Assembly (NCBI GenBank): GCA_024278345.1
Contig: JAJRTK010000334.1
Coordinates: forward strand, 1 to 5,519
DNA length: 5,519 bases
Reading direction: 5' to 3'
Origin: a bacterium
GTDB lineage: Bacteria; CSSED10-310; JAJRTK01
This document shows positions 1,552 to 5,519 of this stretch, one piece after another (the first letter of the stretch is position 1; every line of letters starts with the position of its first letter). The notes below the pieces were generated by a model. The model was not told the origin of the DNA. It made no database searches and worked only from the letters and a program-made list of their open reading frames with translations. The translations under genes were made by a program, and so were the position numbers.

Positions 1552-2388
1552 ATGTCGGCGTGGGTGGTGGAGGATGTCGGGCCCTGGTCGGAGATCAAAC
1601 TAGAGATCATCCGGGACTATGCAGCGGCGTATTCCAGGATTCTCTCTGCGCAGGGGATTTTCGAGCACATTTACATCGACGGCTTCTGCGGGGCGGGGGT
1701 GCACATTTCTCGGGCCACGGGGGGGTACATTCCTGGAAGTCCTCTCAACGCGTTGAACGTCAAGCCGCCGTTCCGAGAGTATCACTTGATCGATATCGAG
1801 GGGGACAAGCTGGATACCTTGGGGCTCCTGGTCGGCGACCGACCCAATGTGTACCTCTATAAGGCCAACTGCAACCGGGTTCTTTTAGAGCGTATACTGC
1901 CTACGGTCATATACGAGCAGTACCGACGCGCGCTATGTCTCCTCGACCCCTACGGCCTTCATTTGGACTGGCGGGTGATCGAGCTGGCTGGTAGACTCCG
2001 AACTGTGGAGATCTTCCTGAACTTCCCCATCATGCACATGAACCGGGGAGTGCTCCGGCGCAATCCAGAAAAGGCCGTGCCTTCAGACGTGGAGCGCATG
2101 ACGACTTTTTGGGGCGACGGCTCCTGGCGACAGATAGCCTACTCGAAGGTGCCAGGCCTGTTTTACGAAGAAGAGTACAAGAAAAACAACAGGGCCATAG
2201 TAGACGCATTTGTAAAACGCTTGAAGTTGTCAGCTGGGTTCCAGTACGTTGCTAAACCTTTTCCGATGAGAAACTCGAAAGGAGCAGTCGTCTATTATCT
2301 GCTTTTTGCGGCGCAGCGCCCGGTGGCCGCAAATATCGTAAAAGATATCTTCATGAAGTACCGCTTCTGGAGGCCCGCCCGGAGTTGA
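1552..2388 (+). CDS. tcmP: Three-Cys-motif partner protein TcmP (methyltransferase-like)
   Basis: The 278-aa product matches the TcmP family, which is named for recurring beside a three-Cys-motif protein, as it does here: the next gene starts 10 bases after this stop. The sequence shows class I methyltransferase-like landmarks. DGFCGAG (43-49) sits where the SAM-binding glycine loop would be. LIDIE (79-83) has acidic residues at the end of strand 2. YKANCN is at 103-108. LLDPYG (130-135) resembles the DPPY-type catalytic motif, followed by FLNFPIMHMNR (155-165). The C-terminal block YYLLFAAQRPVAANIVKDIF (248-267) is typical of the family. I therefore infer a SAM-dependent enzyme, perhaps acting on nucleic acid; the substrate is unknown. 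Length is normal and the frame intact. An upstream in-frame GTG at 1525 would add nine residues but lacks a good ribosome site. Confidence 0.88.
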   Translation: MSAWVVEDVGPWSEIKLEIIRDYAAAYSRILSAQGIFEHIYIDGFCGAGVHISRATGGYIPGSPLNALNVKPPFREYHLIDIEGDKLDTLGLLVGDRPNVYLYKANCNRVLLERILPTVIYEQYRRALCLLDPYGLHLDWRVIELAGRLRTVEIFLNFPIMHMNRGVLRRNPEKAVPSDVERMTTFWGDGSWRQIAYSKVPGLFYEEEYKKNNRAIVDAFVKRLKLSAGFQYVAKPFPMRNSKGAVVYYLLFAAQRPVAANIVKDIFMKYRFWRPARS

Positions 2389-2398
2389 AGAGGATATT

Positions 2399-3139
2399 AT
2401 GGCAACCGGAACCACGATTGAATGGACAGACACGACGTGGAATCCTGTGACGGGTTGCAGCAAAATCAGCCCTGGCTGTAAGAATTGTTACGCCGAACGG
2501 ATGGCAAGGCGGCTCCAAGCCATGGGGCAGAGAAACTACCGTAACGGCTTCCGCGTCACCATGCACGAGCACATGCTGCAGGCCCCGAAGCGCTGGAAGC
2601 GTCCCCGGAACATCTTCGTCAATTCCATGAGCGACCTGTTCCACCCGGAGGTGCCTTTCGATTTCATCCGAAAGGTCTTCGGGGTCATGGGTGAGACCCC
2701 CTGGCATCAGTTCCAGATCCTGACCAAGCGGTCCGAGCGGCTTGTCGAGTTCGCCCCGGAACTTCCGTGGCACCCCAATATCTGGATGGGCGTCAGCGTC
2801 GAGAACGAGATTTACGCCTACCGGATCGACCACCTGCGCACCGTGTCGGCGGCGGTGCGGTTTATCTCGTTCGAACCCCTTGTTGGCCGGGTTCGCTCCT
2901 TGAATCTGACGAACATCGATTGGGTGATCGTGGGAGGCGAATCCGGCCCGGGGGCTCGCGCGATGCGTAGGGAGTGGGTTGTCGAAATCCGCGACAAAGC
3001 CCTCGCAGCCAGCGTGCCGTTCTTCTTCAAGCAGTGGGGCGGGACCCGGAAAAAGAAAGCGGGGCGCCTGCTGGACGGGACGATTTGGAACTTCCTCCCT
3101 GGGGCTCGCCACGGCGTTGTCGCCCCCGTGCCAGCTTAA
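2399..3139 (+). CDS. Three-Cys-motif protein, phage Gp37/Gp68 (DUF5131) family
   Basis: The 246-aa product belongs to the phage Gp37/Gp68 family (DUF5131). It opens with IEWTDTTWNP and the three-cysteine motif Cys20-x6-Cys27-x2-Cys30-Tyr, the only cysteines in the protein. This recalls the iron-sulfur cluster ligands of radical SAM enzymes, though the spacing differs from CxxxCxxC. Further family blocks are FVNSMSDLFH (73-82), ILTKR (107-111), IWMGVSVEN (128-136), FISFEPLVG (156-163), VIVGGESGPGARAM (176-189) and FFFKQWGG (208-215). Their order suggests a beta/alpha barrel. The ATG lies 4 bases after GAAGAGGA, which overlaps the TcmP stop, so the two genes are probably translationally coupled and act together. 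A metal- or cluster-dependent nucleic-acid modification role is plausible, but I know of no settled function. Length and motifs are complete. Confidence 0.9.
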   Translation: MATGTTIEWTDTTWNPVTGCSKISPGCKNCYAERMARRLQAMGQRNYRNGFRVTMHEHMLQAPKRWKRPRNIFVNSMSDLFHPEVPFDFIRKVFGVMGETPWHQFQILTKRSERLVEFAPELPWHPNIWMGVSVENEIYAYRIDHLRTVSAAVRFISFEPLVGRVRSLNLTNIDWVIVGGESGPGARAMRREWVVEIRDKALAASVPFFFKQWGGTRKKKAGRLLDGTIWNFLPGARHGVVAPVPA

Positions 3140-3158: not shown

Positions 3159-3184
3159 CTCCGCGATTCGAGGCTGTCGCGGGG
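3159..3184 (+). other. GC-rich hairpin after the three-Cys gene
   Basis: CTCCGCGA (3159-3166) pairs with TCGCGGGG (3177-3184) across a 10-nt loop, with one G-T wobble. No T-run follows, so it is not a convincing intrinsic terminator. It may stabilise the 3' end of the tcmP/three-Cys transcript. Confidence 0.35.
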
Positions 3185-3206
3185 GTGGCGAAGGGGGATG
3201 GTCGAG

Positions 3207-3228
3207 TGATCACGCGAAAAAATCTTTA
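3207..3228 (+). promoter_or_regulatory. Palindrome GTGATCAC and A/T-rich upstream element
   Basis: A perfect 8-base palindrome (3207-3214) is followed by AAAAAATCTTTA (3217-3228), just upstream of the -35 box at 3237. The A/T tract is placed like an UP element. The palindrome could be an operator half, but it is short and may be chance. Confidence 0.25.
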
Positions 3229-3236
3229 CCGATGTC

Positions 3237-3265
3237 TTGACAGGGGACACGTTGGTGCCGATACT
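3237..3265 (+). promoter_or_regulatory. Sigma70-type promoter upstream of the NYN gene leader
   Basis: A perfect -35 box TTGACA (3237-3242) is separated by 17 bases from GATACT (3260-3265), which matches the -10 consensus at 4 of 6 positions. Transcription would begin near 3272. It is the best promoter I find in the window. It drives a short leader that meets a terminator before the NYN start codon. Confidence 0.55.
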
Positions 3266-3271
3266 GGTAGT

Positions 3272-3347
3272 GGTAGTAGAGAAATTGCGCCCCGCCCGAC
3301 TTGCTTGCGTTCGACCAAACCGCAGGCCTTGGGCGGGGTTATTTTTT
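3272..3347 (+). ncRNA. Putative ~76-nt leader or small RNA before the NYN gene
   Basis: The segment is bounded by the promoter at 3237-3265 and the intrinsic terminator ending at 3347. It begins with short direct repeats (GGTAGTGGTAGTAG, 3266-3279, partly before the expected start). It then folds into a two-tier hairpin: outer stem 3290-3297/3331-3338 and inner stem 3304-3309/3321-3326. The 11-nt apical loop (3310-3320) contains CCAAAC. Together with C3321, CCAAACC is exactly complementary to GGTTTGG at 3354-3360, which overlaps the NYN ribosome site. It could be a stand-alone small RNA, or a cis leader that attenuates the downstream gene. I see no coding potential or resemblance to a known RNA family. 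The boundaries are inferred. Confidence 0.4.
3290..3347 (+). terminator. Intrinsic terminator/attenuator just before the NYN ribosome site
   Basis: CCCCGCCC (3290-3297) and GGGCGGGG (3331-3338) are perfect inverted repeats. TTATTTTTT follows immediately (3339-3347). The 33-nt interior holds a second stem (CTTGCG with CGCAGG, one G-T wobble). The stem-plus-T-tract layout is that of a Rho-independent terminator. Because it lies between a promoter and the NYN ribosome site at 3351, it either ends a small RNA or limits read-through into the NYN gene. Confidence 0.65.
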
Positions 3348-3350
3348 GTC

Positions 3351-3355
3351 GGAGG
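3351..3355 (+). promoter_or_regulatory. Ribosome binding site that fixes the NYN start
   Basis: GGAGG lies 6 bases before the GTG at 3362. It overlaps GGTTTGG (3354-3360), the sequence complementary to the hairpin loop upstream, so access to this site may be controlled by RNA pairing. Confidence 0.6.
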
Positions 3356-3361
3356 TTTGGG

Positions 3362-3985
3362 GTGCCCAGAGAGCCCAGCGTGAAGCGCACTGCGGTTTTT
3401 GTGGATGGACAAAACCTCTTTCATGCAGCCAAAGAGGCTTTTGGGTGCCATTACCCTAATTATAATATCTACGCGCTGGCGTCAAAAGTATGCGGACTGC
3501 AAGGTTGGTGCTTGCAGCAAATACGCTTTTACACAGGTGTACCAGTCGCCGCCGTTGATCCTGTGTGGCATGGGTTCTGGACAAATAAGCTCGCCGCCAT
3601 GGGGCGCAAGGGGATTCATGTTTTTAGGCGGCCTCTAAAGTACCGAAATAGGTGCCAAAAGTGCCCACACGGCCATGCTGTCACGTCTATGGTTGGCAAA
3701 GAGAAAGGGATAGATGTCCGAATTGCCATTGATGTGATTCGCTTGGCGCATCGAAGAGAATATGATGTTGCGCTAGTATTCAGCCAAGATCAAGATCTCT
3801 CTGAAGTTGCCAATGAAATTCGAGAGATTGCCAGAGAACAGAATCGGTGGATCAAGATCGCTTCGGCATTTCCTTGCAGTGAGACCACAAGGAACAAAAG
3901 GGGGATTAACTCCACCGACTGGATCCGTATCGACAGGGCCACCTACGACGCGTGCATCGATCCGAAGGATTACAGGCCTCAGTAG
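3362..3985 (+). CDS. NYN-domain (PIN-like, LabA/DUF88-type) putative ribonuclease
   Basis: I choose GTG 3362 (207 aa) because GGAGG sits 6 bases upstream and the conserved domain begins at once. The longer frame from 3185 would translate the promoter and terminator hairpin. A second GTG at 3380 is possible. NYN domains are PIN-like metal-dependent nucleases, usually acting on RNA. Visible acidic motifs are FVDGQNLF (Asp15, Asn18), GIDVRIAIDV (Asp118, Asp124) and VFSQDQDLSEV (Asp143, Asp145), which match the expected active-site positions. GINSTDWIRIDRATYDACID (181-200) is a C-terminal block I associate with this NYN subfamily. An insertion CQKCPHGH (98-105) could bind zinc. Composition is AT-richer than the integrase. 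The gene converges on int with 31 bases between them. The biological target is unknown; a role in phage defence or RNA turnover is inference from context. Confidence 0.88.
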   Translation: MPREPSVKRTAVFVDGQNLFHAAKEAFGCHYPNYNIYALASKVCGLQGWCLQQIRFYTGVPVAAVDPVWHGFWTNKLAAMGRKGIHVFRRPLKYRNRCQKCPHGHAVTSMVGKEKGIDVRIAIDVIRLAHRREYDVALVFSQDQDLSEVANEIREIAREQNRWIKIASAFPCSETTRNKRGINSTDWIRIDRATYDACIDPKDYRPQ

Positions 3986-4016: not shown

Positions 4017-5201
4017 TCACGCGACAATTTCCTTTAGCCTCCGCTCCCACGCCAGGAGCGCCTCGCGCTTCTCCCGGTCGTAGCTGTGCCGGTCGTACAC
4101 GGCCGTCACCGTGGGGTCGGTGTGGTTGAGCACCTGGCGGATCACGAGCCGCGGCACCCCCAACGAGGCCATTCCCGAAGCCGCGGTCCGGCGCAGGTCG
4201 TGGGGGGTGAAGCGCTCCACCCCGGTGAGGCGCCGGTACTGCTGAATCGCGTGCCCGAGATCCGTGGGCGTGATCGGCGTTGCGCGCCGGGGGAATACCC
4301 ACTCTCCCCTCGGCTCCCCCAGGAGATCCAGCGCCAGGGGCGTCACTGGAACCCGGTGAGCCTTCCGGTTCTTGGTGCGCTCCCCCGGGATGGTCCACCA
4401 CTCGCCCTCGATTTCGGCCCATGGAAGCGCGGCCACCTCCCCGGGCCGCTGGGCCGTGAGGAGGAGAAACCGCAAAGCCCGGCGCGTGGAATCGGTCGCC
4501 CGGAACTCGGTCCCCGTTTCCAAGCCCGAGAACCCCTCCAGCCCCCACCAGAATGCCCGGATCTCGGCTGGCGCAAGTACCCGCTCCTTGGCCCGCTCCT
4601 CTCCGGGGGCCCGCACCTGCCATGCCGGCGACACCTCCAGAATGTCCTGCTCGACGGCCCAGTTGAACATCTTCCGGATCAGGGCCAGGAGCCGGTTTGC
4701 CGCGTACGGGCCCCGGCGCATCACACGGTCCAGGAGCGCCCGCACGTCCCGCCGGGTGATCTCCCGAGCCTTCCGCTTCCCCCACGCCGGGACCACGTCC
4801 TTGTAGAGCCGCCGACGGTCTTCCTCCCAAGATCGCTTCCTGGGTTTCGCCCACCGCTCCAGGTACTCCTCCACGAGCCACGCCACCGTAGGCTCCCGCT
4901 CTCGCGCCTCCCGGGCCAGGCGCCGGGCTCTCTCCCGGACTGCCCGCCCCTCTCGCGGACTCCTGCCGTCCTGGAGGACCTGCTTCGCCTCCAGCAGCGC
5001 CTCCCTGGCCCGGGCGAGCCCCATGGCCGGATACTCACCGAGCACCACCCTTTCCTTCCGCCCGAGGTAGTGGTACGTATACACCCACGCCTTCCGGCCG
5101 GACGGGTACACCCACATCCCGAGCCCCCCGGGCTCCCGAACCTCGTAGCGCCGGTCCCGGGGCCTCAACTGCCGAATCGCCGTGTAGGTGAAGGCCTTCA
5201 T
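4017..5201 (-). CDS. int: P4-type tyrosine site-specific integrase
   Basis: The 394-aa product is a full-length tyrosine recombinase that would catalyse integration and excision of the element. The N-terminal ~90 residues resemble the DUF4102 arm-binding domain (GGLGMWVYPSGRKAWVYTY, then LGEYPAMGLARARE). A SAM-like core-binding domain follows at about 103-195 (TVAWLVEEYLERW). The catalytic domain has all expected residues: Arg252 in TAQRPGE, Lys277 in RTKNRKAH, His334 and Arg337 in HDLRRT, His360 in LNHTD, and the nucleophile Tyr369 in AVYDRH. The ATG at 5201 has AAGGGA upstream on its strand. The gene points away from the tRNA scar at 5380-5434, with about 180 bases of att DNA between them, which is normal for P4-like integrases. 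It is visibly more GC-rich than the NYN and 320-916 genes. It appears intact. Confidence 0.95.
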   Translation of the reverse strand: MKAFTYTAIRQLRPRDRRYEVREPGGLGMWVYPSGRKAWVYTYHYLGRKERVVLGEYPAMGLARAREALLEAKQVLQDGRSPREGRAVRERARRLAREAREREPTVAWLVEEYLERWAKPRKRSWEEDRRRLYKDVVPAWGKRKAREITRRDVRALLDRVMRRGPYAANRLLALIRKMFNWAVEQDILEVSPAWQVRAPGEERAKERVLAPAEIRAFWWGLEGFSGLETGTEFRATDSTRRALRFLLLTAQRPGEVAALPWAEIEGEWWTIPGERTKNRKAHRVPVTPLALDLLGEPRGEWVFPRRATPITPTDLGHAIQQYRRLTGVERFTPHDLRRTAASGMASLGVPRLVIRQVLNHTDPTVTAVYDRHSYDREKREALLAWERRLKEIVA

Positions 5202-5379: not shown

Positions 5380-5434
5380 CTTAAAATCCCTAGGCCGCAA
5401 GGCCGTGCGGGTTCGAGCCCCGCCCCGGGCACCA
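5380..5434 (+). pseudogene. tRNA-Leu(UAA) 3' fragment: attR core of the element
   Basis: The sequence contains the anticodon loop CTTAAAA (5380-5386, anticodon UAA at 5382-5384) and the 3' anticodon strand TCCCT (5387-5391). A long variable arm follows, GGCC-GCAA-GGCC (5393-5404). The T arm is GCGGG-TTCGAGC-CCCGC (5407-5423), then the acceptor strand CCCGGGC (5424-5430), A73 and encoded CCA (5432-5434). The 5' half is absent. The bases preceding the loop do not form the AGGGA expected opposite TCCCT (only the A next to the loop matches), and no GCCCGGG acceptor strand lies upstream. The type II variable arm, A73 and UAA anticodon identify tRNA-Leu. Recombination at the anticodon loop by the adjacent integrase explains the truncation. 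It should be non-functional as a tRNA. Confidence 0.88.
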
Positions 5435-5519
5435 ATGATTACAGAGGGTTACGTGCCCGCGTGGTCCTTTCTTCCTTCACGGCGCCAAGAATGCCTGTGC
5501 TATGCCACGAAAAGCGAAG
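5435..5519. other. Presumed chromosomal flank downstream of the tRNA-Leu target
   Basis: This is the sequence beyond the CCA end of the tRNA fragment, expected to be host DNA that originally followed the tRNA gene. I see no gene, convincing terminator or repeat in these 85 bases. Confidence 0.55.

Follow-up and report, generated by a model that had tools for sequence, protein, structure and literature searches.

In type III toxin-antitoxin systems, an RNA gene, a terminator and an RNase gene lie in this order under one promoter. To our knowledge, RNA antitoxins that directly inhibit a protein are known for few toxin folds, namely the ToxN-like fold and the HEPN fold of AbiF. The AbiF/RCd22 module has a SigA promoter, an RNA of ~100 nt, a terminator and a read-through mRNA, and the RCd22 RNA both lowers expression in cis and neutralises the AbiF RNase by binding it in trans (PMC12373285). 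The locus described here lies in a stretch of 5,519 bases, which we analysed as a whole and refer to as the window. It has the same order of promoter, RNA, terminator and RNase gene as the type III systems ToxIN, CptIN and TenpIN, and it shares with AbiF/Abi_2 and its RCd22/abiF-motif RNA (RF03085) a sigma promoter, a short structured RNA, a Rho-independent terminator and read-through into an RNase. However, it is a member of neither ToxIN nor AbiF. It lacks a toxin of the ToxN, CptN or TenpN families, its RNA has no tandem repeats and no pseudoknot that we could find, and in relatives the RNA consists of one hairpin. AbiF is a HEPN protein, whereas the protein here is of the NYN (PIN-like) type, gives no Abi_2 profile match and has NYN domains as its best structural matches. 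The RNA, ~50 nt in length, is a single hairpin that doubles as the terminator; its sequence is unrelated to that of the AbiF RNA and does not match RF03085. The NYN proteins VPA0982 (2qip) and MARF1 (NYN domain, 6fdl) have the same fold as the window protein at 20% and 11% identity, respectively, and we know of no RNA partner of either. A CRISPR-associated NYN protein of Bacteroides fragilis, with a comparable set of catalytic Asp residues, was shown to be an ssRNA endonuclease that depends on Mn2+ and cuts without sequence specificity; it differs in being encoded in a type III CRISPR locus, with no cognate leader RNA described (PMC11346440). Our search of open-access papers, with most subscription journals outside its scope, returned none on a NYN gene with a leader RNA.

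The promoter, RNA and nuclease gene in the window

A sequence-only reading of the window had proposed a promoter, a short RNA and a terminator packed in front of a putative ribonuclease gene. The features of the locus and its neighbours are as follows.

3237-3242, + strand: -35 box TTGACA (in most relatives, -35/-10 sites lie at a conserved distance ahead of the hairpin)
3260-3265, + strand: -10 box GATACT, after a 17-nt spacer and ending 24 nt before the stem
3272-3347, + strand: predicted small RNA of ~76 nt, its start placed 7 nt past the -10 box and its end at the T tract
3283-3289, + strand: 5' single-stranded segment AATTGCG (consensus A(C)TTGCT, first A invariant)
3290-3299, + strand: 5' arm of the main stem, CCCCGCCCGA (fold and covariation)
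3303-3309, + strand: 5' arm of the inner stem, enlarged in the window copy (consensus GCC-GNRA-GGC)
3321-3327, + strand: 3' arm of the inner stem (fold and alignment)
3329-3338, + strand: 3' arm of the main stem, TTGGGCGGGG (fold and covariation)
3339-3347, + strand: terminator tail TTATTTTTT, with TTAT nearly invariant among relatives
3351-3355, + strand: ribosome-binding site GGAGG (sequence)
3362-3985, + strand: NYN-domain (PIN-like) ribonuclease gene, GTG start, 207 aa (Pfam, PADLOC and fold)
1552-3139: TcmP/DUF5131 gene pair, directly upstream of the RNA-NYN cassette
4017-5201, strand opposite to the NYN gene: tyrosine integrase

The proposed TTGACA-17-GATACT promoter is present at 3237-3242 and 3260-3265, and the proposed outer stem (3290-3297/3331-3338) is the uninterrupted 8-bp G-C core of the main stem 3290-3299/3329-3338. 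The inner stem, given as 3304-3309/3321-3326, is also present, but is really one pair longer (3303-3309/3321-3327). Likewise, an RNA of ~76 nt is indeed predicted for the window, but this size is peculiar to its copy, which is atypical in having a longer leader (24 nt from the -10 box to the stem) and a large apical loop, with a stem-loop of 49 nt; due to these two features, the RNA reaches ~76 nt here and ~50 nt in relatives. As a 77-nt sequence it folds with -35.3 kcal/mol (z = -3.55 against dinucleotide shuffles). Since the window promoter by itself is within chance (two sites found versus 1.7 expected in a promoter scan of the window), our case rests on the comparison with relatives. A covariance model built from 86 sequences, of which the window copy is one, matches the window at 3278-3350 with 53.2 bits. 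No Rfam 15 covariance model matched 3237-3361 at E-values up to 5. The hairpin lies in a frame open from 3185, and we set aside the possibility that it is coding sequence, as the leader varies in length among relatives and the changes preserve base pairs.

That the protein is a NYN protein rather than ToxN, and that the RNA has no long tandem repeats, had been stated correctly: the profiles give NYN, and a scan of 3180-3370 for direct repeats was empty. Pfam NYN (PF01936) matches the protein at 7.5e-13 (49.7 bits, cut-off 24.2) and PADLOC HEC-09, a candidate model without tested function, at 2.1e-15; in Pfam and NCBIfam together, NYN and a weak Endo_dU were the only matches, with no ToxN family and no Abi_2. 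At the active site, all 89 homologues have D15, D118 and D145, and 88 of the 89 keep D143. A sequence search of solved structures gave no relative, and the structural relatives were found by fold comparison only: an AlphaFold2 model (pLDDT 92) matches VPA0982 with Z 16.1 and the MARF1 NYN domain with Z 13.4, both well above every other match. Judged from its residues, the window protein has an intact NYN active site, and RNase activity is likely by analogy with the CRISPR-associated NYN protein, which has the same kind of Asp set.

Elsewhere in the window, an S24 peptidase fragment occupies the left end, and there are two orphan ORFs. TcmP (TIGR04474; PADLOC PDC-M41A) and DUF5131 (PDC-M41B), at 1552-3139, form a candidate defence pair, which is not kept beside the RNA-NYN cassette in other genomes. 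Beside the integrase at 4017-5201, an apparent tRNA 3' end (GGTTCGAGCCCCGCC...CACCA) is located at about 5390-5435, where ARAGORN found no whole tRNA; together they probably mark an attachment site of an integrated element.

Conservation of the element ahead of NYN homologues

We collected NYN homologues with 47-68% protein identity from 80 genome contigs and 9 viral contigs, plus three found by whole-genome and plasmid search, with more added later. In the 150 bases upstream of each gene, which we examined, the element lies directly ahead of the gene in 91 of the 92 homologous loci. These loci span at least 15 phyla, including Gemmatimonadota, Acidobacteriota, Planctomycetota, Bipolaricaulota, WOR-3/Stahlbacteria, Omnitrophota, Elusimicrobiota, Hydrogenedentota, Pseudomonadota, Rokubacteria, Chloroflexi, Patescibacteria and others, where most of the sequences are metagenome bins, so that single assignments may be wrong. 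Among the carriers is a cultured strain, Brevundimonas aurantiaca DSM 4731 (L089). The order of promoter, small structured RNA, terminator and RNase gene on which the sequence-only reading had been based is thus conserved in essentially all NYN relatives; the homologue alignment that it had proposed as a check shows hairpin and promoter conserved across phyla, outside the element of the window. The exceptional gene (L074:4001-4621), alone among close NYN homologues in lacking the RNA, also carries G59D, a change at a site where 88 of 89 homologues have Gly. In another locus (L092:3935-4003), the T tract is poor, and behind it a second long inverted repeat extends up to the start codon and is perhaps a translational lock.

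The RNA consensus is A(C)UUGCU-CCCCGYYYGA-CAC-GCC-GNRA-GGC-C-UCRRRCGGGG-UUAUUUUUU, or, as DNA, A(C)TTGCT-CCCCGYYYGA-CAC-GCC-GNRA-GGC-C-TCRRRCGGGG-TTATTTTTT. In most relatives the entire stem-loop is 34 nt long, and the coding region starts 9-73 nt downstream. When 86 distinct copies are aligned, 96.8% of the cells of the 13 proposed pairs are paired, and 12 of the 13 pairs show compensatory (two-sided) changes, a level that none of 500 shuffles reached; when the partners were slid by 1-3 columns, pairing fell to 35-54%. RNAalifold independently recovered the same structure. The apical loops are mainly GNRA-type tetraloops, with TTCG in three copies, and divergent copies missed by the model keep the plan, for example ACCCGCCGGATC-GTC-GCAA-GAC-TTTCGGCGGGTTATTCTC in L167, which contains a further compensatory change. 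Bases outside the pairs are conserved too: the first A of the 5' segment in 86 of 86 copies, the C opposite the internal loop in 84 of 86, and TTAT after the stem. As far as the alignment tells, this conservation exceeds the needs of a plain terminator. A chance combination of promoter and terminator is ruled out by the conservation and covariation. So is a known RNA family, since Rfam 15 searched at E-values up to 10 with relatives, including eight consensus copies, gave no family at the element. BLAST of one 81-nt copy against plasmids returned no match, and a pattern scan of viral DNA found nothing beyond the loci already known.

Promoter scores also differ from those of shuffled sequences. 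Averaged over the loci, the top sigma-70-like site ahead of the stem reaches 8.75 of 12 versus 5.75 in shuffles, and 36% of loci reach a score of at least 10 versus 1% of shuffles; the best predicted promoter is below 9 of 12 in about a third of loci. In about 70% of loci the -10 box ends 13-17 nt before the stem. At the invariant A, which lies 6-10 nt past the -10 box, information per column rises abruptly from ~0.1 to 2.0 bits, so that this A coincides with a plausible transcription start; a start there would make the RNA of a typical relative about 50 nt long. It is this comparison, in the form of the 12 covarying pairs out of 13, the scores of 8.75 and 5.75 and the 53.2-bit match in the window, that makes the promoter significant.

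Linkage to the NYN gene and genomic setting

In a sample of 386 genomes across the domain, with NYN called at E-values up to 1e-15, we found NYN in 13 genomes, the RNA in 16 and both in 12; the thirteenth NYN-bearing genome, which has no match to the model, contains a divergent hairpin of the same plan. Of the 17 RNA places outside the window, 12 directly precede a NYN gene and one a NYN relic, which excludes a general element unlinked to NYN; the remaining four, one of them a weak match, are without NYN. RNA and protein distances are correlated (Mantel r 0.48, permutation maximum 0.26). No neighbour family recurs in 114 flanking ORFs, whose strand and family are random, and neither a conserved word upstream of the promoter nor a conserved 8-mer after the gene was found. 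We therefore rejected an operon partner, since neither the TcmP/DUF5131 pair nor the integrase recurs beside the cassette, as well as a mobile cassette with a conserved far end, and, because neither flanks nor neighbours are conserved, the conserved unit is the promoter, the RNA and NYN alone.

The 50 carrier genomes have, as a rule, one RNA copy each. Most extra copies are either NYN relics or belong to the solo hairpins of a single genome (G413), which has five copies; two of its solo hairpins lie right behind tRNA 3' ends, without NYN (L152:3043-3099 and 3882-3946). In the relic of contig G036:C4 (L115/L159), the RNA precedes only the last 19 NYN codons, and NYN has been lost and the RNA retained in L155 and L075:2444 as well, judged from N-terminal remnants. 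Two Caldilineaceae bins (L066 and L068) share an in-frame stop after NYN codon 70 and have an intact RNA (77.7 bits). We did not take this asymmetry of broken NYN and kept RNA as proof of addiction, as target size alone explains it: the RNA is ~12 times shorter than the gene, so RNA-only relics are expected by chance.

In alphaproteobacterial phage-like elements, five cassettes (L091, L096, L094, L097 and L093) have a terminase gene, a portal gene or both as neighbours, with a position between the two genes confirmed at both flanks in L091 and L097. A cassette or relic is also found within type I restriction loci (hsdM, DUF1016/YhcG, hsdS) in L159 and L075, and in L075 a DUF1016 gene, preceded by a separate copy of the RNA, seemingly begins with a NYN-like N-terminus. 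By analogy, such sites look like those of a moron or a toxin-antitoxin cassette.

Candidate functions and a possible wider class

The order of promoter, RNA, terminator and NYN gene, the covariation of the RNA, its near-exclusive co-occurrence with NYN and the autonomy of the unit from its neighbours are observed. For its function we lean, at slightly better than an even chance, towards a type III-like module, similar to ToxIN and AbiF, in which a terminated RNA inhibits a NYN RNase made by read-through; the 'undescribed RNA-controlled nuclease module' of the sequence-only reading is thus also our best reading, given an order conserved across phyla. Transcription from a sigma-70-type promoter would yield a short hairpin RNA with an intrinsic terminator of its own. 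Since this terminator is located between promoter and gene, most transcripts would be the short RNA, in excess, and occasional read-through would supply the mRNA of the NYN-domain endoribonuclease. The abundant RNA, a compact hairpin with the conserved single-stranded 5' end A(C)UUGCU and the conserved internal loop, would then probably bind the nuclease and hold it inactive, as in type III toxin-antitoxin systems and AbiF, and NYN would be toxic or serve in defence or addiction. We take RNA inhibition of NYN as the most likely mechanism because AbiF/RCd22, where it is proven, has the same anatomy.

The main rival is autoregulation in cis, in which the hairpin acts as a leader attenuator of the NYN mRNA and is bound or cut by NYN or another factor, which tunes read-through; the released RNA would have no job of its own, and NYN would be a housekeeping or defence RNase rather than a toxin. 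It is common for RNases, such as RNase E and RNase III, to regulate their own leaders, the hairpin is nearly always in cis, 9-73 nt ahead of the coding region, and a conserved attenuator bound by NYN would show the same pattern. On the other hand, the conserved 5' end begins at the predicted +1 and the RNA has a strong terminator of its own, no alternative antiterminator pairing is seen, and A(C)UUGCU shows no antisense complementarity to the downstream mRNA beyond that of shuffles. The patchy spread over phyla and the random neighbours are also more like a toxin-antitoxin or defence unit, and we consider attenuation rather unlikely, though a serious contender.

Considerably less probable, and third in our ranking, is that a NYN ribonucleoprotein uses the RNA as a structural or guide cofactor and is active when RNA-bound, for example in anti-phage defence. 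The conservation of the single-stranded A(C)UUGCU and the internal loop beyond what a terminator needs would fit such a role, as would the reported relationship of AbiF and its ncRNA to the origin of RNA-guided Cas13 (PMC12373285). However, the single-stranded segment is fixed and hence offers no variable guide, and there is neither a variable spacer nor a partner gene. Still a little less credible is a mere insulated expression cassette, a moron-like promoter and terminator that travel with the gene by horizontal transfer. Sites flanked by terminase and portal genes, or lying within type I restriction loci, would suit this explanation, but a terminator between promoter and gene would only lower expression, and the loop, internal-loop and 5'-end bases are conserved, with a stem that covaries across phyla.

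Returning to the RNA-inhibited module, we found leaders composed of a promoter, one or more hairpins and a terminator, but unrelated in sequence, ahead of some distant NYN genes (25-30% identity); none of these leaders matched Rfam above cut-off. On the Carboxydocella thermautotrophica plasmid pCCELLA01 (L177:2330-2513), a perfect TTGACA-17-TATAAT is followed by three tandem hairpins and a terminator before the start codon; the hairpins have similar TCGGA-type loops and the leader folds with z = -7.3, so that by its sequence it looks like a repeat-type RNA antitoxin. The 4.3-kb E. coli plasmid pKFu019_3 (L174:2250-2474) carries a distant NYN gene, found in one of 5,426 E. coli genomes; its leader contains the word GCTACGGCTC repeatedly, and a perfect terminator lies 30-55 nt ahead of the ATG. 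L005 and L006 are further examples of distant NYN genes with such unrelated leaders. A close upstream terminator is present in 4 of 20 divergent NYN genes versus 0 of 19 canonical ones, with shuffles near zero, in samples that are small; we thus rejected the idea that the architecture is general to all NYN genes. These leaders suggest that several independent RNA families precede NYN genes, again from small samples.

A whole class of toxin-antitoxin or defence modules, in which NYN RNases are checked by dedicated leader RNAs, is conceivable, though we put it somewhat below an even chance; the RNA of the window would be one family of this class, present in at least 15 phyla, with unrelated ones before other DGxN-type NYN genes. 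A covarying RNA tied to a NYN RNase in many phyla would add an RNA family absent from Rfam 15 and, if the inhibition of NYN by its RNA is true, would provide a new toxin fold and a function for a large set of orphan NYN proteins.
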